Source: Candidatus Fermentibacterota bacterium (GTDB lineage: Bacteria > JAFGKV01). From it: 64,000 bases of DNA. Where the stretch lies: NCBI GenBank assembly GCA_030620115.1, contig JAUXFG010000002.1, positions 4,855 to 68,854 on the forward strand, written 5' to 3'. The first letter of the stretch is position 1, and every line of letters starts with the position of its first letter. The notes beneath the pieces were generated by a model. The model did not search any database, was not told the DNA's origin, and saw nothing but the letters and a program-made list of their open reading frames with translations. The position numbers were made by a program, and so were the translations under genes. Of this stretch, positions 35,928 to 63,011 are shown piece after piece.

Positions 35928-36204
35928 GAAGTCAAATGGCTGGCGATATGGGGTGGGTACTGTCGGCTGTCCTCTCCTTCCGCTGCCTGTAGGTGCGGGG
36001 TCGGATTGCCTTTCGGGGCCGGCGGCACGACCCATTCTGAAGGGGTTGTAGTTCTCGGAGTACTAGCATAATTTGGTAGGCTTCTGTTCGCAGCGGCCGG
36101 TTGGCTGTGGTACACTCAACGCGGTTGACCCGCCCTCCAGCCTTTGCAGAAAGATGCCCTGTCGTGGCTTAACGCTGCCACCACCTTTGCCGAGGAGGTC
36201 CCCC

Positions 36205-39200
36205 ATGCGCGCCGTCTTATTCGCTCTGGTTGTCGCGTTGCTCGTGAGCATCGCGGGCACTTCCATCGCCCAGCCCTCGTTGACCTTGGTACCTCCGGAT
36301 CCGCAGGCCGACAGTTATTTCGGCCGCCGCCTTTGTACCCTCGGCTACTTCGGCGGTGATCCTTCCGGTGATGGGGTGGTTGATCTGATCGTGACCGCCG
36401 AAAATCAGACCGCCGGTGCAGATGCGTCAGGGGCCGTCTTCCTGTTCGACGGCGCCACCGGAGCGCCCCTGTGTGCCTTTCGCTCGGATAACGCCGAGAC
36501 GTGGGGAAACTTCGGGCACTCGGTCGGGGAAGTTCCGGATGCCAACGGCGACGGATACGACGATTTCATCGTCGGTGCCTGGCGGGAAGACCATTCCGGA
36601 ATCACCAACGCCGGCAGGGTCTACGTCTTCGATGGGGATGTCGATGCGCCCGTCTACACCCTGGTATCTCCCAACCCCGAAAGCGATGGGCGGTTTGCCT
36701 GGTCAGCGGGCTTCGCAGGCGACGTGAACAATGACGGCGACCCCGACATCGTGGTGGGGGCCTACATCGAGGACGGTGGGGCCTCAAATTCCGGTCGCGC
36801 CTATGTCTTCGATGCCCAGACAGGCACGCTGCTGTGGACGTTGGTCTCGCCGAATCCCGAGGACACCGGCAGATTCGGCGATTCTGTCGCGGGCGCCGGC
36901 GATATCGATGACGATGGGTTCGATGATGTGATCATCGGAGCCAATTCCGAAGACGGCGGCACGTTCGAGGCAGGCCGCGCCTATGTGTTCGGTGGGCAGA
37001 CCGGTTCCCTGATCCATACCCTCGTCTCTCCCAATCCTTCCATCAACGGCCTCTTCGGTGTGGCAGTGTCTGGCGTGGGCGACGTCGACAATGACGGTTA
37101 CGACGACGTGATCGTAGGAACGCAAGAAGCCCCCGGTGGGCTCTTGGGGGCAGGCAGGGCCTATGTGTTCAGCGGGCAGACCGGCTCGCTTCTCCACACC
37201 CTGGTCTCGCCCAATCCCGTGGAGTGGGGGTTCTTCGGTTCCGGTGTCATTGGGACCGGCGACATGAACAGTGATGGTCGGCCTGACATGGTCATCTCCG
37301 CCTCAACGGAGGACGGCGGCGCCACCGATGCCGGCAGGGTCTACGTGTTCAGCGGGATCGATGGCTCTCTCCTCAGGACCTTTGTCTCTCCCAATCCCGA
37401 AGTGGACGGCACCTTCGGTGCTTCCATCGCATCCGTACCCGATGTGAACAGCGACGGCTGCCCTGACCTGATGGTCGGTGCCTCCTACGAGGACGGCGGC
37501 GATAGCGACACCGGCAGGGCCTACTTGCTCAGCGGCAGCGACGGGGCACTGCTGTCCACCTTCGTATCGCCCAATCCGGAGAGTGGCGGAGACTTCGGCA
37601 CCTCGGTATCCTCCATCGGAGATCTGAATGGCGATGGGTTTGCTGATGCTTTGGTCGGCGCCCGTCTAGAGGACGGCGGCGCGGCCAATGCGGGGAGGGC
37701 CTACGTGTTCAGCGGCGCCGACGGCGCTCTCATCCATCCCATCGGGTCGCCCACCCCCGAGGCGAACGGGTTCTTCGGGCATGCCGCGTTCTCCGTGGGC
37801 GATGCCACGGCGGATGGGCTGGATGACTTCGTGATCGGCACCTACTACGAGGATGGCGGCGGGGTTCTGGACGCCGGCAGGGTCTACTTCTTCGACGGCG
37901 ATCTGGACGCCCCGCGGCTCACCTTGATCTCGCCCAATGCCCAGACCAACAGCCGTTTCGGCTGCGCGGCAGCCGGCGCGGGCGATGTCGACAATGACGG
38001 CGATCCCGATATTGTCGTCGGCGCCTACGGCGAGACGGTCGGCGGTTCCACCGCTGCTGGACGGGTCTATCTCTTCGATGCGGGCACCGGCGCCTTGGTG
38101 CGGACGTTGGTCTCGCCGAACCCCGAATATGCCGGTCGGTTCGGATGGTCGGTCGCCGGGACCGGCGATGTCGACGACGACGGCTACGACGACGTGGTCA
38201 TCGGCGCAGATAGCGAGGACGGCGGTGCCGGCGGGGCCGGCAGAGCGTATGTGTTCAGCGGGCAGACCGGCGGCGTGCTCTACACCCTGGTTTCTCCGAA
38301 CCCGGTTGGCAGCGGCGGGTTCGGCTCGCACGTGTCGGGAGCGGGCGACGTCGACGATGACGGATACGCCGACGTGATCGTCGGAGCCTCGGAGCCCCCC
38401 GGAGGGCTCTCAGGGGCCGGCAGAGCCTATGTGTTCAGCGGGCAGACCGGGAGCATCCTCTACACCCTGGTCTCGCCGAACCCGGAGGAGTGGGGCTCCT
38501 TCGGAGCTTCGGCCGCCTGCGTAGGCGACATCGACAATGACGGCTACGATGACGTGGTCGTGGGAGCGGGCGGAGAGAGCGGAGGAGAATCGGCGTCGGG
38601 GCGAGTCTACGTGTTCTCCGGTTCCACGGGGAATCTCCTGGCAACCCTTGTCTCGCCTGCCCCCGAGGAGGGCGGCCATTTCGGTGCGGCGGTGGCGGGG
38701 ATCGGCGATCGCGACGGCGACGGGTTTGACGACTTGATGATCGGGGCGCTCTACGAGGACGGAGGCGCCACGGATTCAGGACGAGCGTATGTCTACAGCG
38801 GCACGGTCGTACCGGTCGAACTGGCTCTGTTTGAGGCATTCCCGACAACGGACAGGGCAGTATCGCTGCGATGGACCACCGCCAGCGAACAAGATAACCT
38901 TGGCTTCTTGATCTACCGGGCTGACGGAGAGCATGCACCGCGGCGTCTCATTACCTCGGACATAATACCGGGCGCAGGCACCTCCTCAGCCACGAACTCC
39001 TACGAGTATGTGGACCATGTGCCGGGCCCCGGAACCTATCTCTACTGGCTCGACCAGGTGGACATGGGCGGTGCGACCACGACCTATGGGCCCATCCGTG
39101 CAGTCGTGAAACCCGACGGCCTGGCCATCGATGGGCTTCGGCCGAACCCGGCGATTCGAGACGTCCGTGTCACGCTCATGATCCCCGACGACGCGTCGAC

Positions 39201-39384
39201 GCCTGCATGCCTGGCGCTGTACGACTTCGCAGGCCGGGAGGTCGTGATCCTTCGGGATGATCTCGTCAGTGGTGTCCACGAGATCGAGTGCGCGATCCCG
39301 GATGACATCGCCGCGGGCGCCTACCGGATGATGGTCCGGACTGACAAGAGCGCGGCAGCACTGCCGTTGGTCATCGCCAGGTAG
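36205..39384 (+). CDS. Secreted FG-GAP repeat protein, 14 repeats, with C-terminal sorting-type domain
   Basis: A 1059-residue protein from ATG 36205, which has GAGGAGGT upstream and a clean signal peptide (MRAVLFALVVALLVSIAG); an open frame extends 44 codons further upstream without support. Fourteen FG-GAP repeats of about 62 residues follow, each with an FG or similar turn and a calcium-loop motif such as DVDDDGYDDVVIGA, interrupted by conserved LVSPNPE. Fourteen suggests two seven-bladed integrin-type propellers. After residue 870 come a beta-sandwich (VSLRWTTASEQDNLGFLIYRA) and a terminal module (LRPNPAIRDVRVTLMIPDDAS...LYDFAGREV) like FCB secretion tails. It is likely a calcium-binding surface or extracellular protein; the ligand is unknown. 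Confidence 0.88.
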   Translation: MRAVLFALVVALLVSIAGTSIAQPSLTLVPPDPQADSYFGRRLCTLGYFGGDPSGDGVVDLIVTAENQTAGADASGAVFLFDGATGAPLCAFRSDNAETWGNFGHSVGEVPDANGDGYDDFIVGAWREDHSGITNAGRVYVFDGDVDAPVYTLVSPNPESDGRFAWSAGFAGDVNNDGDPDIVVGAYIEDGGASNSGRAYVFDAQTGTLLWTLVSPNPEDTGRFGDSVAGAGDIDDDGFDDVIIGANSEDGGTFEAGRAYVFGGQTGSLIHTLVSPNPSINGLFGVAVSGVGDVDNDGYDDVIVGTQEAPGGLLGAGRAYVFSGQTGSLLHTLVSPNPVEWGFFGSGVIGTGDMNSDGRPDMVISASTEDGGATDAGRVYVFSGIDGSLLRTFVSPNPEVDGTFGASIASVPDVNSDGCPDLMVGASYEDGGDSDTGRAYLLSGSDGALLSTFVSPNPESGGDFGTSVSSIGDLNGDGFADALVGARLEDGGAANAGRAYVFSGADGALIHPIGSPTPEANGFFGHAAFSVGDATADGLDDFVIGTYYEDGGGVLDAGRVYFFDGDLDAPRLTLISPNAQTNSRFGCAAAGAGDVDNDGDPDIVVGAYGETVGGSTAAGRVYLFDAGTGALVRTLVSPNPEYAGRFGWSVAGTGDVDDDGYDDVVIGADSEDGGAGGAGRAYVFSGQTGGVLYTLVSPNPVGSGGFGSHVSGAGDVDDDGYADVIVGASEPPGGLSGAGRAYVFSGQTGSILYTLVSPNPEEWGSFGASAACVGDIDNDGYDDVVVGAGGESGGESASGRVYVFSGSTGNLLATLVSPAPEEGGHFGAAVAGIGDRDGDGFDDLMIGALYEDGGATDSGRAYVYSGTVVPVELALFEAFPTTDRAVSLRWTTASEQDNLGFLIYRADGEHAPRRLITSDIIPGAGTSSATNSYEYVDHVPGPGTYLYWLDQVDMGGATTTYGPIRAVVKPDGLAIDGLRPNPAIRDVRVTLMIPDDASTPACLALYDFAGREVVILRDDLVSGVHEIECAIPDDIAAGAYRMMVRTDKSAAALPLVIAR

Positions 39385-39720: not shown

Positions 39721-39768
39721 GATTGCAATCAGTTTTAGCTTGCATTTGCAAACATTCTATGTTATCAT
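39721..39768 (+). promoter_or_regulatory. hicAB promoter and candidate operator (near-leaderless)
   Basis: TTGCAT (39740-39745) and TATCAT (39763-39768) are spaced by 17 bp, and the ATG of hicA is at 39776, so the predicted transcript would have almost no leader. Two inverted repeats overlap or adjoin the -35 box: GATTGCAATC (39721-39730) and TTGCA-TT-TGCAA (39740-39751). HicB proteins with a ribbon-helix-helix tail repress their own promoter, so these are candidate operators. Confidence 0.45.
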
Positions 39769-39775
39769 TCCATTC

Positions 39776-40030
39776 ATGAATGTGAAGCACAGAAAAACAC
39801 TTGCAGCTATCTACACAGATCCGATAAACGGCAATATTGAATGGGGCAGGATTGAAGCTCTTTTTCTCCATCTTGGTTGTCGAGTCATTGAAGGAACCGG
39901 TTCAAGTGTTACCTTTGAGAAAGATGGCATCCGGTCTTATTTTCACCGACCACATCCTGCCAAGGAAGCACTCAGATACCGCGTCAAAGATGCCCGTGCA
40001 TTTCTTACAACCCTAGGAGTCAAGCCATGA
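39776..40030 (+). CDS. hicA: HicA toxin (mRNA interferase)
   Basis: An 84-residue protein beginning MNVKHRKTLAAIYTDPINGNIEWGRIEALFLHLG, exactly the pattern of longer HicA-family proteins. The catalytic histidine lies in the GSSVTFEKDGIRSYFHRPHP segment of the double-stranded-RNA-binding-like fold. HicA cleaves mRNA and tmRNA to stop growth when HicB is lost. Its TGA overlaps the hicB ATG. No Shine-Dalgarno sequence is present before the start. Repeat elements flank the module on both sides. Confidence 0.9.
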   Translation: MNVKHRKTLAAIYTDPINGNIEWGRIEALFLHLGCRVIEGTGSSVTFEKDGIRSYFHRPHPAKEALRYRVKDARAFLTTLGVKP

Positions 40031-40362
40031 AGGGAATAAGCTACAAAGGCTACTCTGCCCACATAGAATTCGACCCGGAGGATCGCATTCTTGTTGGTCA
40101 CATCATCGGCATACGCGATGTCGTTGGCTTCCACGGAAAATCTGTAAAGGAGCTTGAGAGAGCCTTTCATGAAGCCGTTGATGATTATCTCGCAGCGTGT
40201 AGGGAGCTTGGTCAAGAACCCAATAAGCCCTATTCCGGTAACCTTATGCTGCGGGTCCCAACTGAAGTTCATGCTGCTGTTGCAGCAGCCGCCGAAGCCA
40301 ATGGGAAGAGTATCAATCAATGGGCAGCTAGAGTTCTTGCGTCAGCAAGTCATGCTCATTGA
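40027..40362 (+). CDS. hicB: HicB antitoxin
   Basis: A 111-residue antitoxin. The N-terminal partial RNase H-like fold reads MKGISYKGYSAHIEFDPEDRILVGHIIGIRDVVGFHGKSVKELERAFHEAVDDYLAACRELG. The C-terminal ribbon-helix-helix, NLMLRVPTEVHAAVAAAAEANGKSINQWAARVL, should bind operator DNA. It blocks HicA and represses the pair. The ATGA overlap with hicA supports coupled translation. Both genes look intact, unlike most of the surrounding accessory DNA. Confidence 0.93.
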   Translation: MKGISYKGYSAHIEFDPEDRILVGHIIGIRDVVGFHGKSVKELERAFHEAVDDYLAACRELGQEPNKPYSGNLMLRVPTEVHAAVAAAAEANGKSINQWAARVLASASHAH

Positions 40363-43515: not shown

Positions 43516-43949
43516 TTCCAATACCAGAATCCGGGTAGCGCCTCATTGGCACCGCGAGCTGGGCATACCGACAATAGACTCTCAGCTCGACCACGTTTCT
43601 CCATCTCACCATAGCCTTCCACATGCGTGCCAGCCCTTGCGAAATCGGGGTCAACAGGAGAACTTGGCACGAGTTTTGATCCCAGTCAGACGACAGTGAT
43701 AAAGAGAGAAGCCAAGTCCGGATTCCTTATATTGGGGTTCGCACAGGAATAGGATCGCAGGCAGGGAAAAATCACAGGCAGGGACGCCTGCGCCACTGAG
43801 CTGCGCCACTGAGCTGCCCCACTTGGCAAGGCCGAAAGATGGGACATCATAATGGGAGATTATTCCCGAGCGGATCTTGGCACGCATATTCGGACATGGA
43901 CCGGGGTGGTTTTGGGCCACACCAGATTAAGTCATAGGAGGATGATGTG
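43516..43949. other. Intergenic region upstream of ppdK
   Basis: About 430 bp with no supported gene. A 13-bp word, GCGCCACTGAGCT, is repeated in tandem near 43788-43815, after AGGCAGGGAC. The ppdK promoter should lie in the last 150 bp but I could not pick a convincing one. Confidence 0.45.
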
Positions 43950-46661
43950 ATGGCGAAGCAAGTATATCTTTTTGGACTCGGTACGGCTGATGGTTCCGTT
44001 CAAATGCGGAATCTGCTTGGCGGAAAAGGTGCGGGTCTGGCCGAGATGACCAACCTGGGGCTGCCTGTGCCCCCTGGATTTACGATCTCCACGGAAGTCT
44101 GTACCTACTACGAGACGAATAATCACCAGTATCCCGAAGGCATGAAAGAGGCCGTGAAAGACGCATTGAGAAAGGTCGAGGAGAAGATGGGGCTCGTATT
44201 CGGCGATCCCGAGAAGCCACTCCTCCTCTCGGTGCGGAGCGGCGCCAGAGTTTCCATGCCGGGAATGATGGATACGGTACTGAATCTCGGACTCAATGAT
44301 CAGACCGTTGAGGGCCTCATCAAGATGGGCGGGGATGCCCGGTTCGCATATGATAGCTACCGCCGATTCGTGCAGATGTACGGTGATGTGGTGTTGGGCC
44401 TTAAGCCGACGTCGAAGACGGAGGAGGACCCTTTCGAGGTCAACATACAAGAGAAAAAGAATGAAGTAGGCGCAAAGCTCGACATAGACCTCTCCACTGA
44501 AGACTTGAAGGACCTGGTAGGAAGGTTCAAGCAGGCCATCCTGTCCGCCACAGGAAGTGATTTCCCCGAGAATCCTGAAGATCAGCTATGGGGATCCATT
44601 GGTGCAGTGTTCGGGTCGTGGGACAATGATCGGGCAATCGCATATAGGGAATTGAACGGGATCCCGGATGATTGGGGAACCGCGGACAATGTACAAACCA
44701 TGGTCTTTGGGAATATGGGCCCTGACTCGGGAACAGGTGTGGCATTCACCCGTGACCCTGCCACAGGTGAGAAGAAACCGTACGGTGAGTACCTCATGAA
44801 TGCCCAAGGAGAGGACGTCGTTGCAGGTGTCAGGACTCCATTGCCGCTTTCGGATCTCAAGACTTCCCGCCCCGAGATCTATGATCAGCTTATCTCGACC
44901 TTTCAGCGCCTGGAAGATCACTTCAAGGACATGCAGGACGTTGAGTTCACCATGCAAGAGGATCACCTCTGGATGCTCCAGACCAGAACCGGGAAACGAA
45001 CCGGGTTCGCCGCGGTGAGAATCGCGGTGGAGCTTGCTGAAGAGAGGCTCATCGATGAGAAAACCGCGCTGGAACGAGTAGACCCTGAACAATTGAACCA
45101 TCTACTCAGACCCGTCTTCGATCCGGAAGAGAAGAGAACCGCCATCTTCCAAGAAAACCGGCTCCTGGCCAAGGGTCTGAATGCAGGCCCCGGGGCGGCC
45201 AGCGGCAAGGTGGTATTCAGTGCTCCTGATGCGGAAGAGTGGCGATCCAGAGGAGAGAAAGTGATCCTTGTCCGGATCGAGACCAGCCCAGAGGATATCA
45301 GAGGCATGAACGCCGCAGAAGGAATCCTTACGGCCCGGGGCGGCATGACCTCCCATGCGGCATTGGTGGCGCGGCAGATGGGCAAGGTGTGTGTCGCCGG
45401 CTGCGGTGCGCTGAACATCGACTACTCTCAAGCTCGGATGACCGTTGGCAGCAAGGAGGTCAGAGAGGGCGATACTATCAGTATCGATGGCTTCACCGGC
45501 GAAGTGATTGCCGGAGATCTCTCCACGCGTCCTTCGGAGGTTATCCAAGTGCTCATCGAGGGTTCTTTGAAGCGCGAAAAGTCAGCCATGTTTGGGAAGT
45601 ATCAGAAGCTCATGCAATGGGCTGACAGATTCCGCCGACTCCGCGTGCGAACCAATGCGGACCAGCCTGACCAGGCGCGGAATGCCATCGCATTCGGGGC
45701 GGAAGGGATTGGTCTGTGCCGGACCGAGCACATGTTCTTTGGGGAGAGCAAGATTACGGCTATGCGCGAAATGATCCTGGCCGCAAACTTGGAAGATCGA
45801 GAGAAGGCCCTGGCCAAACTCCTTCCCATGCAGCGGGAAGACTTCAGAGGCATCTTCCGAGCCATGGACGGATATCCGGTCACCATCAGGACCCTTGATC
45901 CTCCGCTTCACGAGTTCCTTCCGCACGACGAAGACAAGATCATTGACCTCGCCGCCTCCATGGGAGTGGACGCTGATCAACTGAAAGCAAAGGTCAAGAG
46001 TCTGCATGAAAGCAACCCCATGCTGGGGCATCGCGGCTGTCGACTCGGCATCTTCTACCCTGAGATCACGCGGATGCAGGCAAGGGCAATCTTCGAAGCC
46101 GCATGTGAGGTGGCGAAGGAGGGTATATCCGTCATGCCGGAGATCATGATTCCCGTGGTTTTCGAGCGCAATGAATTTGCCGACCAAGAAAAGATCGTTC
46201 GCCAGGTAGCCGAGCAAGTCTTCCAGGAACGGGGGATGAAGGTCGATTACCTCGTGGGCACGATGATCGAGCTCCCCCGGGCCGCCATCACCGCAGCTCA
46301 AATCGCACGAGATGCCGAGTTCTTCTCATTCGGCACCAATGATCTGACACAGACCGCCTTGGGCATCTCTCGTGACGACGCAGGCACCTTCCTGCCACGC
46401 TACATAGAGACTGGCATTTTACCCTTTGATCCGTTCCAATCCGTGGATAGGGAAGGGGTCGGCGAGCTCATGAAGTGGGGTGTGGAGAAGGGACGGACAA
46501 CTCGACCGGACCTAAAGGTTGGCATATGCGGTGAACATGGAGGAGATCCCAAGTCGGTCGAATTCTGTCACGAGATCGGTCTGAACTATGTGAGCTGCTC
46601 TCCGTTCCGTGTGCCAATTGCCTGTCTCGCCGCAGCAAGGGCGGCAATCAACGACGACTAG
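43950..46661 (+). CDS. ppdK: Pyruvate, phosphate dikinase
   Basis: A 903-residue enzyme interconverting pyruvate + ATP + phosphate and phosphoenolpyruvate + AMP + diphosphate. The nucleotide-binding domain begins [45 protein letters not shown]. The phosphorylated histidine lies in [27 protein letters not shown] near residue 455, and the PEP-binding barrel ends with the catalytic cysteine in [15 protein letters not shown] 43950 has AGGAGG eight bases upstream; the GTG one codon earlier is less likely. Length is normal. The following gene starts ten bases after its stop, so they are probably co-transcribed. Confidence 0.97.
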
Positions 46662-46670
46662 GAGATACAG

Positions 46671-48593
46671 ATGATCGGTGTGCTCCGGCTTCAGAGTGGG
46701 GCAGGCACTCTCCTTGTTTATCCGGAAGTAGATCCGGGCACGGGAGAGCTCATCCATCTGGTGATGGTGGCGGCGCAGGGCTATCAGGAACAAGAGGTGG
46801 CAAGGGCAGTCGCCTCTTTTCTGGTCCATGCGAGCGGTGATACGGACGCATGGATGGCGGGTCCCGGGCCCATGCTCACCAAGGCGCTTGCACAGGTGGA
46901 ACCTATCACCGTCCAGGGCGGGCTCTTGCTCAGTTGTGCGGTATGCATCCGCAAGGGACAGATGGTGGAGACTGCATTTGCTGGTGATATCGAGGTGAGG
47001 CTTGCGCGGATGCACAAGACGGAGTGGTTCGAGGGGAGCCGGAGCCAGGAATCGGGTCTTACCACCGCAACCTTCGGCATTGCTGCTGACGATGTCCTGG
47101 TGATCACCACACAAGCCCTCATGGACGAAATGACCGCTGAGGAGCTGGCCAAGACGGTTCTCGTTGCGGACCCGCCCGAGGCGGTCAATCGTGTGGAGAG
47201 ACGCCTTCAGAATGCCACGTTTCGCGACCCGCAAGCAATCATTCTGGCTTCATTTCGGAAGAACCTCCCCGCCATGGGGGAACCGGGCAGTCCGGCCAAG
47301 GTTTTCCCCGGCTTGTTCGGGATTTCCCAACCCCGCAGGCACTTCCCGAAAATCGCGCTTCCCGTAGGCCTGGCGGCAGTGGTGGTCGCCATCCTCTTCG
47401 TGATATTCGGCACCAATCTCTTCCGGGAGCCCGGCCCAGGCGAGCCCGGCATGGTGCGGGAACGAGAAACAGACCGGCAGCCGGTGGAAACGACCAAGAT
47501 CCCGGCAGCGGAACCAGAAACCACCGTGATCGAATTGCCCCCTGCTGTCCAACCTCCGACTGATTCAGTGGCGAGGATTCCTGCAGCGGTCACCGAGCCT
47601 GACGAACAAGAACCCCTGGGCAAACCAGGAGAACTTCTGTGGAAGGTGAGAATCGGCGGCAGCAACTTCTCTTCTTCTCCATGTGTGGCGGGGAAGAAGA
47701 TCTATGTGGGGAGCAAGGATACCCATCTCTATTGCCTCTCCACCTCCAGTGGAGAAGTCGTGTGGAAGTACAAGACGGATGGCGGGATTGGATCATCGCC
47801 GCTCATCGTGGACGACAGACTCTGCTTCGGGAGCTATGACAGTACTCTCTACTGCATCAACCGCCACTCCGGTGAGCTTCTCTGGAAACAAAAGGTCAAC
47901 AATCGTATCGCGACAAGCCCTGAGGCTCGCCACGGGATGGTTTTTTGCGGCAGCGATGACCATTCACTCTACGCATGGAAGCTGTCGACTGGCGCGCCAG
48001 TCTGGAATCGCGAGACCGGCGATGTCATTTGGGCCAGACCGGTGATTCTTGATGAACAGCTGTTTATTGGAAGTCTCGATGGCCTGTTTTATTGCCTGCA
48101 CCCAAAGACCGGCGAGATACAGTGGAGTCAGGAGGCGGGAGGAAAGGTCTATGCGTCGGCCGCACTCGCGGGTCGAAAGACGGTGCTGTACGCCTCTGCT
48201 GCCGGGCACATCAGGCGAGTCACCCGAGACAGTGGTGACCTTATTTGGCAGAGCAATTTTGGTTCTATCTACTCCACGCCTGTCTTTTTTGAGGATCTGA
48301 TCTACTTTGGCAGCAAGGATGGTCTTTTCCATTGCCTGGCCGCTGATAAGGGCAATCAGATATGGAGTTTCTCAACCACCAGGGCCATACGCTCCTCACC
48401 TGTCATTTCAGGGAATACCGTGTACGTTGGAGGATATGACGGAAGACTCTACGCCCTGAACCGGGATACAGGCAAGAAACGCTGGGAGTTTGACACAAAG
48501 TCTCGTATCTATTCCACGCCGGTTGTCTCTGGCGGTCGTGTCTTCTTCGGAGATCTGACGGGCTGGTTCTACGCGTTGGCCGCTTCTTCCTAG
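46671..48593 (+). CDS. PP2C-like domain fused through a membrane helix to a PQQ-type beta-propeller
   Basis: A 640-residue protein with a very unusual layout. Residues 1-215 have PP2C/SpoIIE phosphatase style: VMVAAQGYQEQEVARAVASFLVH, GLLLSCAVCIRKGQMVETAFAGDIEVRLARM (compare AHVGDSRAYL), LTTATFGIAADDVLVITTQALMD (compare DDFLLLATDGL) and ASFRKN. The first metal-binding DGMGG motif has been replaced. One transmembrane helix (IALPVGLAAVVVAILFVIFG, about 226-247) and a proline-rich linker follow. Residues 326-640 hold about eight BamB-like repeats (GELLWKVRIGG, SGEVVWKYKTDG, DTGKKRWEFDT). It is probably a signalling protein linking a periplasmic sensor to a cytoplasmic, perhaps inactive, phosphatase. 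It follows ppdK by ten bases. Confidence 0.72.
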   Translation: MIGVLRLQSGAGTLLVYPEVDPGTGELIHLVMVAAQGYQEQEVARAVASFLVHASGDTDAWMAGPGPMLTKALAQVEPITVQGGLLLSCAVCIRKGQMVETAFAGDIEVRLARMHKTEWFEGSRSQESGLTTATFGIAADDVLVITTQALMDEMTAEELAKTVLVADPPEAVNRVERRLQNATFRDPQAIILASFRKNLPAMGEPGSPAKVFPGLFGISQPRRHFPKIALPVGLAAVVVAILFVIFGTNLFREPGPGEPGMVRERETDRQPVETTKIPAAEPETTVIELPPAVQPPTDSVARIPAAVTEPDEQEPLGKPGELLWKVRIGGSNFSSSPCVAGKKIYVGSKDTHLYCLSTSSGEVVWKYKTDGGIGSSPLIVDDRLCFGSYDSTLYCINRHSGELLWKQKVNNRIATSPEARHGMVFCGSDDHSLYAWKLSTGAPVWNRETGDVIWARPVILDEQLFIGSLDGLFYCLHPKTGEIQWSQEAGGKVYASAALAGRKTVLYASAAGHIRRVTRDSGDLIWQSNFGSIYSTPVFFEDLIYFGSKDGLFHCLAADKGNQIWSFSTTRAIRSSPVISGNTVYVGGYDGRLYALNRDTGKKRWEFDTKSRIYSTPVVSGGRVFFGDLTGWFYALAASS

Positions 48594-48860
48594 GCCGCAT
48601 ATGTCTGGTTCGAATTCGTGTTTCTTGAAACTTGAAACCCGACACCTGAAACCTGTAGTAATCTCTTGATGGATCCGGACAACATCGGAGAAATCCCCCT
48701 CAGTCCCCCTTTGCAAAAGGGGGAGGTGTTCGGATGCTCGGATTTATTGAAAGATTGGAAACATGACACCTGACAACAGCGTAGAATCCTGACTTCGCCC
48801 GGGGCATGAGGTTTCTAAGGAATAGACAAAACAGCGTTCTCTCAGAGAATAGGAGGGGTC
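48594..48860. other. Intergenic region with a foldback repeat
   Basis: 267 bp including the CCCCCT/AGGGGG repeat at 48688-48726 and several GAAACTTGAAAC-like words. No gene. The FmdB promoter is presumably within the last 100 bp. Confidence 0.45.
48688..48726. repeat. AATCCCCCT...AGGGGGA foldback repeat
   Basis: GAGAAATCCCCCTCAGTCCC followed by CCTTTGCAAAAGGGGGAGG. It folds as CCCCCTTTTGC-like arms around TTGCAA. The same unit is found at 62808-62847. Confidence 0.75.
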
Positions 48861-49238
48861 ATGCCGCTGTATGAGTATCGTTGCAGAGATTGTGGGAAGG
48901 TGAGCACCATCCTGGTTGGAATTACCATGGAGAAGCCGGCAATCTGCTGCGCACGCTGCGGCGGAACCGACTTGGAGCGGCTAATATCTCGCGTACATCA
49001 TCTCCTTGGTGAGGAAGCGCGCATGGAGAAGATGTTGGATCCTTCCATGCTGGCGGGTGTAGATGAGAACGATCCCAAGAGCATCGCACGTTGGGCACGG
49101 AAGATGGGGCGAGGCCTCGGAGACGATATGGGGGAAGACTTCGACGGTCTTGTTGATGAAATGGAGGAGACAGCGGCCCGTGAGATCGAATCTGGTCCGC
49201 ACGGAGACGATGAATCCATCCCAAACGATCTTGATTAG
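48861..49238 (+). CDS. FmdB-family zinc ribbon protein
   Basis: A 125-residue protein with AGGAGGGG before its ATG. The N-terminal zinc ribbon is MPLYEYRCRDCGKVSTILVGITMEKPAICCARCGGTDLERLIS with two CxxC pairs (CRDC, CARC), typical of the FmdB regulatory/zinc ribbon family found in small proteins linked to transcription or stress. The acidic C-terminal 70 residues (GRGLGDDMGEDFDGLVDEMEETAARE) look partly helical. The stop codon TAG is the first three bases of a family A repeat, so the original end of the protein may have been altered. Role unknown. Confidence 0.87.
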   Translation: MPLYEYRCRDCGKVSTILVGITMEKPAICCARCGGTDLERLISRVHHLLGEEARMEKMLDPSMLAGVDENDPKSIARWARKMGRGLGDDMGEDFDGLVDEMEETAAREIESGPHGDDESIPNDLD

Positions 49239-49873: not shown

Positions 49874-52867
<2,994 letters not shown>

Positions 52868-53011: not shown

Positions 53012-54625
53012 ATGATTAGACAATTCTTGGCTGGACCTAGCGCACTTTTGGTGCTCCTCCTCGCCTGCGCGAGCACGACCGCGGATCGTCTGCCGGTAGG
53101 CGAGGCATATTCCGACACCCTGCAACTCGCCGTAAGGCTTTCTGAGGAACGCGACCTTGATGGATGCGTCCAGGAGCTCCAGCGGATCGTGGCACTGCCC
53201 TCGTCCCCCATGGTGAAGATCCAGGCGTACTGGAGACTGTATCTTGTGCATCGCGATAGAGGAGAAAGCCTGGACGCATTGCAGGCGCTTGTTTCCTGTC
53301 TTGAACGAGACGCCGCACATCGATCCAGCATATACGGGAGAGCACGATCGAGTCTGGGCCCCGCAGTGGTGGATGCCCTGGCGGCGGATATCAGCTGGGC
53401 CACGATCTCGAATCTGCTCGGCGGCATCGAGGAAGTGGAGCTAACCCTCGATCTCGTCTCCTATTTGACCGAAAACGAAGACTGTTATCCCGCGTCGATA
53501 TTGCTCGGTAAGCTCGCACGCCAAGGACTCGACGCAGGGGATGAGCAAAGAAGAACGCGATTGGCGAAGAAAGTGATGCGCTGCATGGAGAAGACCAGAC
53601 CAACGCTGGCTCTGGTGGTACCGCTCACAGGCGACTATGCGGAGTATGGATCGAACCTCGCGCGCGGAGCGGAACTCGCATTGTTGGATTCAGCTTCCGC
53701 CGGCACTCTCATTCTGGAGAAAATCGATTCCGGTTCCGATCCGGTTGAAGCCACATTGGCCATGAGTCGATTGGCAAGGTCACCGCACGTCATTGCGGTC
53801 ATCGGCCCGCTGCAGAGCAGAGCGGCCACGGGAGCCGCAATGGCAGTGACCCAGGGGGAGCTACCCAATCTTGTTCCCCTTCCTGCCCCACAGGGTCTAT
53901 CCAGATTCGGCAAATGGGTCTTCCAGAGTGCCGTGCCGATTCAGGCTGAAGCGAGAACCGTGGCCAAGTATGCCATGATTCACGGAGGAATATCGAGGTT
54001 CGCCATCCTGTATCCTTCCCACGCCACAGGAGAGCGTGCCATGGATGCCTTCAAGAGCCAGGTATACGACCTTGGCGGCGAGGTTGTGGCCATCGAGCGC
54101 TACAGCGAGGACCGAGATACTGATTTCCGTACACAGATCGTGAATATCAAGCGGGCATCCCCCCAGGCGCTTTTCGTGCCCGGGCAGCCAAGGGAACTGA
54201 TTCAGATTGCCCGACAGGTCGCCTTCTATGAACTCGAATGCCAACTCCTTGGCACCGATGGTTGGAGCTCAACCGAGGTTATTGCCCGGGGTGGACGACT
54301 GGTTGAGGGTGTCATCTTCTCCGACCTTGCCGGCATGGAGAAAAACACCTACGCGGTTGACATCTTCAGAGCAACTTATCAGGAACGGTTTGCACGGGAT
54401 CCCGATCACTATGCCTACATCGGATTCGACCTTGCCTCCTGCGTGAGAAAGGCGGTTGAGAACGGGAGAACCACCAGAGACGGCCTGCGGCGATACCTCG
54501 AAGGTCTCGGGCCTATCATGCGGGTTTCAGGGGTCCTCAGCTGGCGCGACGAAGACACTCCCGGCGCGATTCAGTTGCTTACCATCGCCGATGGTCTGGT
54601 GGTACCACTGCCCATGGGGTCGTAG
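53012..54625 (+). CDS. LpoA-like / periplasmic-binding-fold lipoprotein
   Basis: A 537-residue lipoprotein. The signal peptide MIRQFLAGPSALLVLLLACAS has a lipobox ending at Cys19. About 170 helical residues follow, then a type I periplasmic-binding fold from about residue 192: TLALVVPLTGDYAEYGSNLARGAELAL, VIGPLQSRAATGAA, RFAILYPSHATGERAMDAF, SPQALFVPGQPRELIQIARQ. This helical-domain plus Peripla_BP_6 arrangement resembles LpoA, the outer-membrane activator of penicillin-binding proteins, as well as amino-acid-binding proteins of ABC importers. No ABC transporter genes are nearby, and secA and lptD flank it, which favours an envelope role. Confidence 0.75.
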   Translation: MIRQFLAGPSALLVLLLACASTTADRLPVGEAYSDTLQLAVRLSEERDLDGCVQELQRIVALPSSPMVKIQAYWRLYLVHRDRGESLDALQALVSCLERDAAHRSSIYGRARSSLGPAVVDALAADISWATISNLLGGIEEVELTLDLVSYLTENEDCYPASILLGKLARQGLDAGDEQRRTRLAKKVMRCMEKTRPTLALVVPLTGDYAEYGSNLARGAELALLDSASAGTLILEKIDSGSDPVEATLAMSRLARSPHVIAVIGPLQSRAATGAAMAVTQGELPNLVPLPAPQGLSRFGKWVFQSAVPIQAEARTVAKYAMIHGGISRFAILYPSHATGERAMDAFKSQVYDLGGEVVAIERYSEDRDTDFRTQIVNIKRASPQALFVPGQPRELIQIARQVAFYELECQLLGTDGWSSTEVIARGGRLVEGVIFSDLAGMEKNTYAVDIFRATYQERFARDPDHYAYIGFDLASCVRKAVENGRTTRDGLRRYLEGLGPIMRVSGVLSWRDEDTPGAIQLLTIADGLVVPLPMGS

Positions 54626-62668: not shown

Positions 62669-63011
62669 GGATTGCCACAAGGGAAGGGAAACTCGGGAAG
62701 ATGAAGAGAGATTCTTCGCTCCTTTCAATCGCTCAGAATGACCGCAGTAGTGCACAGAAAAATGAGGTCCATGTGTCGTAACTTCTCAATAAGTCAGTGC
62801 AGCGTGAGAGAAATCCCCCTCAATCCCCCTTTGCAAAAGGGGGAGAAGGTTGGATGCACGGACTCATTGAGAAGTTACCATGTGTCATTCTGAGAGAGCA
62901 AAGCGATCGAATAATCTGCACAGAAGGCACTCCTCCGCATTTCAGCAATCCCTCGTTCCGCTCTTCCAACCCATCAACCCATCAACCCAATCGCGAAGCG
63001 AAGCTCCGCTA
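62669..63011. other. Intergenic cluster of short repeats
   Basis: About 340 bp between convergent genes, without a gene. It contains CATTCTGAG-type repeats at 62706-62742 and 62883-62922 and, between them, the nested inverted repeat at 62779-62877. Confidence 0.6.
62779..62877. repeat. Nested inverted repeat around an AATCCCCCT unit
   Basis: The outer arms are TAACTTCTCAATAAGTC and GACTCATTGAGAAGTTA. Inside is AAATCCCCCTCAATCCCCCT, TTGCAAAAGGGGGAG, the same foldback unit as at 48688-48726. About 99 bp, able to form a branched hairpin. Confidence 0.72.

Follow-up and report, generated by a model that had tools for sequence, protein, structure and literature searches.

A degenerate PP2C-fold domain joined by a predicted transmembrane helix to a BamB-like propeller: a candidate pseudophosphatase receptor encoded downstream of ppdK in Candidatus Fermentibacterota

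The gene directly downstream of ppdK in a 64,000-nucleotide stretch of DNA from a Candidatus Fermentibacterota bacterium (hereafter, the window) encodes a protein in which a degenerate PP2C-fold domain, a single predicted transmembrane (TM) helix, a proline-rich linker and an eight-bladed propeller follow one another. We propose that this protein acts as a receptor that crosses the inner membrane once and has a pseudophosphatase as its output, and we put the probability of this whole mechanism at roughly one half. The structural identity of the protein, that is, its architecture and folds, is assigned with high confidence. The features of the gene are as follows (positions are those of the window).

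46671..48593, + strand: whole gene for a degenerate PP2C domain, TM helix, proline-rich linker and eight-bladed propeller (640 amino acids, ATG start).
46671..47258, + strand: predicted PP2C-fold domain, residues 1-196 (AlphaFold2 model, fold searches, profile comparison and alignment).
47352..47408, + strand: single TM helix, residues 228-246, predicted N-in/C-out (hydropathy and flanking positive charges; helix 232-247 in the model).
47409..47624, + strand: proline-rich linker, residues 247-318 (pLDDT mostly under 50, disordered; poorly conserved).
47625..48584, + strand: eight-bladed BamB/PQQ-type beta-propeller, residues 319-638 (PF13570, 2e-68; PF13360, 3e-47; Foldseek).

The open reading frame and the layout of its product were confirmed: the frame runs on the plus strand from an ATG through 640 residues, as the original prediction had described, and a ribosome-binding site and orthologs were found. 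The phylum was sampled by three genomes, all of one family: that containing the window (G000) and two relatives, G001 and G002, which are metagenome-assembled genomes (MAGs) labelled Candidatus Fermentibacteria bacterium Zod_Metabat.355 and Candidatus Eisenbacteria bacterium Prado127 in GenBank. One genome is 98% complete, and one of the sequences comes from an 82% complete MAG. Orthologs are present in all three genomes, which cover two genera, at about 40% identity (42% and 39% to the window protein over the full length for the two relatives), and the domain order is kept in each of them. The two orthologs outside the window are located as follows.

L008:3162-5012: ortholog in G001.
L009:9496-11358, minus strand: ortholog in G002.

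When 84,980 species genomes were searched with a peptide pattern, the same two relatives and a planctomycete propeller were obtained, and nothing else.

A PP2C-type cytoplasmic domain had been predicted from the sequence. Residues 1-200 gave no Pfam or NCBIfam PP2C/SpoIIE match even at a permissive threshold, and the assignment of the PP2C fold depends on a model built from three sequences. AlphaFold2 modelling of residues 1-200 with the three-row alignment gave a pLDDT of 82 and a pTM of 0.81, and the secondary structure agrees between this model and the full-length model, which are two separate predictions. When the model of the N-terminal domain was submitted to Foldseek, the best among the matches listed were PP2C-family proteins (tPphA, 2.6e-9; PstP, 2.0e-8). 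Structural alignment by VIA gave a Z value of 17.3 against tPphA across 186 residues (3.0 Å), and values of 16.5 against PstP from M. tuberculosis (1txo), 15.9 against RsbX and 13.3 against the pseudophosphatase TAB1. Comparison of profiles by hhalign pointed in the same direction: the three-row profile scored 35.6 (local) and 26.6 (global) against 28 PP2C_2 domains and was above every one of 100 column-permuted controls (maxima, 27.0 local and 13.0 global), with an hhalign probability for the PP2C match of 61% on its own. The scores against SpoIIE domains were below those against PP2C_2 (30.5 versus 35.6 local, 14.1 versus 26.6 global), and a SpoIIE-type origin of the domain is therefore not preferred. 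Thus, the AlphaFold2 fold, Foldseek, VIA and the profile comparison concur, and residues 1-200 are modelled as PP2C and not as some other fold. Several further matches were discarded as chance. These were a CMD match to residues 1-220 (E 0.026), PDB matches of the same residues to designed toroids and ribosomal protein L5, and profile matches of the N-terminal domain outside the phylum (386 genomes), which were weak and several of which were ribosomal protein L5 by sequence.

PP2C enzymes hold two metals by the aspartates of the (A)DG, SDG and DN motifs, and the Asp of the GDSR motif lies near a third metal. In the alignment of the three orthologs, the (A)DG motif reads AQG in every case, so that the bridging Asp is lost, and residues 28-39, where this Asp would be expected, contain neither Asp nor Glu in any ortholog. 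The position that hhalign aligns with SDG reads TQA in the window protein and TLG and SLG in the relatives, and the metal Asp is again lost in all three. The Asp of DN is deleted in both relatives, and D186-P187 of the window protein is ambiguous in this respect. Only the GD of GDSR is invariant (G105-D106), D106 being the sole core metal Asp that is kept. The motif alignment also included one PstP sequence, on which no result rests. From this combination of motifs, no PP2C catalysis is predicted. The original prediction had stated that the first metal motif was lost. The DG motif is indeed gone, but this statement understated the change: of the four core Asp positions, three are either missing or not conserved, and the flap insertion is also absent from the domain, which is shorter than typical bacterial PP2C. 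Nevertheless, the domain is maintained. Between G001 and G002, the two closest orthologs, the pN/pS of the N-terminal domain is 0.25/0.65 and dN/dS is about 0.2, although the synonymous changes approach saturation; judged from these sequences, the domain is under purifying selection. The proposal of an inactive phosphatase is thus borne out by the fold, the motif loss and the conservation, and the domain, as far as sequence and model can tell, is very probably a pseudophosphatase.

The best 19-residue hydropathy value in the protein is 2.98, at residues 228-246, and the runner-up elsewhere is 1.34, in agreement with the single TM helix proposed earlier. An Arg-Arg-His...Lys stretch lies on the N-terminal side of this helix, and the relatives are alike. 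Because the positive residues precede the helix, the N-terminus is predicted to be cytoplasmic. The linker was likewise found to be rich in proline (14 Pro per 74 residues), and the identity of the TM helix plus linker among the orthologs is 16-29%. Neither a signal peptide nor a lipobox was found at the start of the protein, which begins with a folded domain of 200 residues and then enters the TM helix. PstP consists of a cytoplasmic PP2C, one TM helix and an extracytoplasmic domain. From hydropathy, charges and domain models, the window protein is predicted to have the same layout, with its C-terminal domain outside the cytoplasm.

The C-terminal domain gave strong Pfam matches to PQQ_2 and Beta-prop_ACSF4, and the Pfam search detected no Pkinase domain in the window protein. 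In Foldseek, the propeller model matched the designed eight-bladed Cake8 (TMt 0.94), and its best natural matches were BamB. These structural and Pfam matches agree with the eight BamB-like repeats that had been counted in the sequence. The score against the BamB equivalog TIGR03300 was 160.3 bits, under the cut-off of 285.2. Within the protein, conservation is highest in the propeller (47-49% identity versus 36-38% for the N-terminal domain). At E 1e-5, it is the only PQQ_2 protein in G001, and in G002 it is the only strong one. Because these two genomes contain no other strong PQQ_2 protein, they have no obvious separate BamB. In G000, a second PQQ propeller was observed (L002, G000:C146:22856-23437). 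Its open frame of 500 residues has a stretch resembling a signal peptide and a tail of T9SS-like appearance, and it does not look like BamB.

The gene is embedded in the following neighbourhood.

43947..46661, + strand: ppdK, pyruvate phosphate dikinase (TIGR01828, 1317 bits; directly upstream in three of three genomes).
46660..46664, + strand: AGGAG ribosome-binding site, overlapping the ppdK stop codon (46659-46661).
48861..49238, + strand: FmdB-type zinc-ribbon protein (TIGR02605, PF09723; next gene in three of three genomes).
49874..52867, + strand: secA (TIGR00963, 1017 bits; conserved block, three of three genomes).
53012..54625, + strand: periplasmic-binding/LppC(LpoA)-like protein (PF13458, PF04348; conserved block, partial at the end of the G001 contig L008).
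54686..57928, + strand: lptD-like LPS assembly protein (PF19838, PF03968; end of the examined block; also in L009 of G002, and contig L008 stops short of it).

As had been noted from the sequence, the gene stands directly behind ppdK. The gap is 9 nt in the window, with the ribosome-binding site overlapping the stop codon, and 6 nt in both relatives. The linkage to ppdK recurs in all three genomes, which belong to one family, within a conserved synteny that spans four to six genes or more. Because this block also holds fmdB, secA, the solute-binding gene and lptD, the adjacency to ppdK is not specific. Two further observations were made by eye upstream of ppdK in the window. At 36073-39384, a long secreted protein has many FG-GAP-like repeats and a T9SS-type C-terminal tail, and at 39740-40362, two small overlapping open reading frames resemble a HicA/HicB toxin-antitoxin pair, with no NCBIfam match at 1e-4.

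The nearby secA, lptD and LpoA-like genes suggest a role in envelope biogenesis and not in signalling, and this counts against the receptor reading. The protein might be an inner-membrane-anchored BamB-like scaffold that joins Sec export to outer-membrane assembly, the PP2C remnant serving as a cytoplasmic anchor or as a dock for SecA. The BamB matches of the propeller, both structural and to TIGR03300, are consistent with such a scaffold, as is the PQQ_2 search, in which a separate BamB candidate was not seen in G001 or G002. The higher conservation of the propeller also fits: the propeller could be the chief functional part, with the cytoplasmic domain mostly an anchor, which again counts against a receptor. 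However, 160 bits is well under the 285 bits of the BamB equivalog cut-off, and a lipoprotein signal is absent, a folded domain and then the TM helix occupying the N-terminal region. Moreover, the purifying selection on the PP2C domain and its many invariant residues would not be needed by a mere anchor. We regard an envelope-assembly scaffold as possible but doubtful.

The original prediction had also connected the protein with the control of PPDK by phosphorylation. We know of no established bacterial family of PPDK phosphoregulators other than PDRP/DUF299 (PF03618). PDRP is a kinase/pyrophosphorylase and is unrelated to PP2C. A profile search found PF03618 in none of the three genomes, one of which is 98% complete, and it is absent from the window protein. 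PDRP is said in a review to occur in all PPDK-bearing bacteria (PMC8100219); contrary to this, G000, G001 and G002 have a PPDK and no detectable PDRP. The pseudophosphatase domain might bind PPDK, perhaps according to its phospho-His or regulatory Thr state, and couple PEP/pyruvate flux to a periplasmic signal, thereby replacing PDRP. Apart from the missing PF03618, the immediate adjacency with the overlap of ribosome-binding site and stop codon, conserved in all three genomes, would fit this idea, as would the Thr-Ser-His in the GGMTSHA motif of PPDK. However, this motif is general among PPDKs, and the conserved block extends well past ppdK in genomes of one family. What we found for the control of PPDK by this protein is the adjacency, in a synteny longer than ppdK; the link is weak, and we consider such a regulator unlikely. 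It is still less probable that the protein hydrolyses phosphoproteins at an unusual metal site made of other acidic residues. E19 and D21 are invariant alongside D106, and the modelled fold around the pocket is that of PP2C. However, none of the three orthologs retains the bridging Asp or the Asp of SDG, which are ligands of the two catalytic metals in established PP2C chemistry, and no activity was detectable for PHLPP2, whose PPM site has diverged (PMC12002173).

We return to the receptor with a pseudophosphatase output. Each of the three genomes encodes five to seven Hanks kinases. In addition, two of the three (G000 and G001) encode a protein composed of PP2C, a TM helix and a proline-rich part (L011, G000:C177, and L010, G001:C117), in which DGMGG, GDSR, SDG and DN are intact, so that both proteins look active by sequence. 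Because Hanks kinases and active-looking PP2C-TM proteins are present in the same genomes, partners would be available. Pairwise alignment did not show that the N-terminal domain of the window protein descends from the active-looking proteins, and the layout is common to both. The contig of L010 in G001 also encodes a Hanks kinase, about 2 kb downstream of L010, and the two are likely a kinase/phosphatase pair. As a separate observation, a dispersed palindromic repeat, CCCCCTTTGCAAAAGGGGGA, is present in L010 at 2425-2441, 2466-2486, 2595-2615 and 2835-2855. Three to four of the copies are in frame in the proline-rich extracytoplasmic tail, where they give PPLxKGDxGGFPSP-like peptides. The same repeat occurs at 48705-48724 and 62825-62844 of the window, for which 0.01 would be expected per window.

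In the proposed receptor, the propeller would bind a periplasmic ligand or protein, and this binding would alter the oligomeric state or the position of the cytoplasmic domain. By analogy with other single-pass receptors, the signal would cross the single TM helix probably by association. The dead PP2C domain, comparable to TAB1 in animals, may then provide a platform for the docking or allosteric control of a partner, which could be a phosphoprotein, an active PP2C or a Hanks-type kinase, and its output would be exerted by binding and not by catalysis. The pathway served is most likely Ser/Thr-phosphorylation signalling. Sensing of the periplasm, as suggested in the original prediction, would be compatible with the predicted topology. 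Only tentatively do we extend this to a dead-PP2C transmembrane receptor that uses a periplasmic signal to direct either a circuit of Ser/Thr phosphorylation or PPDK itself, the phylum seemingly lacking the usual PPDK regulator. If true, the protein would add a layout with a dead phosphatase to the known transmembrane signalling devices of bacteria and, to our knowledge, would be the first example in bacteria of transmembrane signalling through a pseudophosphatase. Its three orthologs, clear domain border and defined residues make it a clean object for tests, and for lineages in which PDRP is not found the question arises how PPDK is controlled.

Pseudophosphatases are established in eukaryotes. 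TAB1 resembles the window protein in that the metal site of its PP2C fold is degraded, but TAB1 is eukaryotic and is not fused to a TM helix and a periplasmic propeller. The same applies to PHLPP2, which is described as inactive (PMC12002173). Our search of the open-access literature found neither a bacterial PP2C pseudophosphatase nor a PP2C joined to a PQQ propeller, and coordinate matching across 290 genomes gave no PP2C_2/PQQ_2 fusion among the matches listed (about 150 per family). PstP has the PP2C fold in common with the window protein; however, it is an active metallophosphatase with all metal aspartates and its outer part is not a propeller, whereas the window protein has lost the catalytic aspartates and carries a BamB/PQQ propeller. 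BamB shares the eight-bladed PQQ-type propeller, but it is a lipoprotein of the outer membrane and has no cytoplasmic domain, whereas the window protein is predicted to be anchored in the inner membrane and does not reach the BamB cut-off. PDRP, the regulator expected in PPDK bacteria (PMC8100219), belongs to an unrelated family. PQQ-repeat kinases have been described from Deinococcus and Streptomyces (PMC1262709), and the extracellular propeller of PknD has six blades (PMC6213207). AfsK, other PQQ-STYKs and PknD resemble the window protein in combining a cytoplasmic Ser/Thr signalling domain with a propeller, but in them this domain is a kinase and here it is a degenerate phosphatase. Although uniqueness is not claimed and each part is known (PP2C-TM proteins, propeller sensors on kinases and eukaryotic pseudophosphatases), the combination was not encountered in the literature searched or among the matches listed for the 290 genomes, and we regard the window protein as a new variant among these systems.
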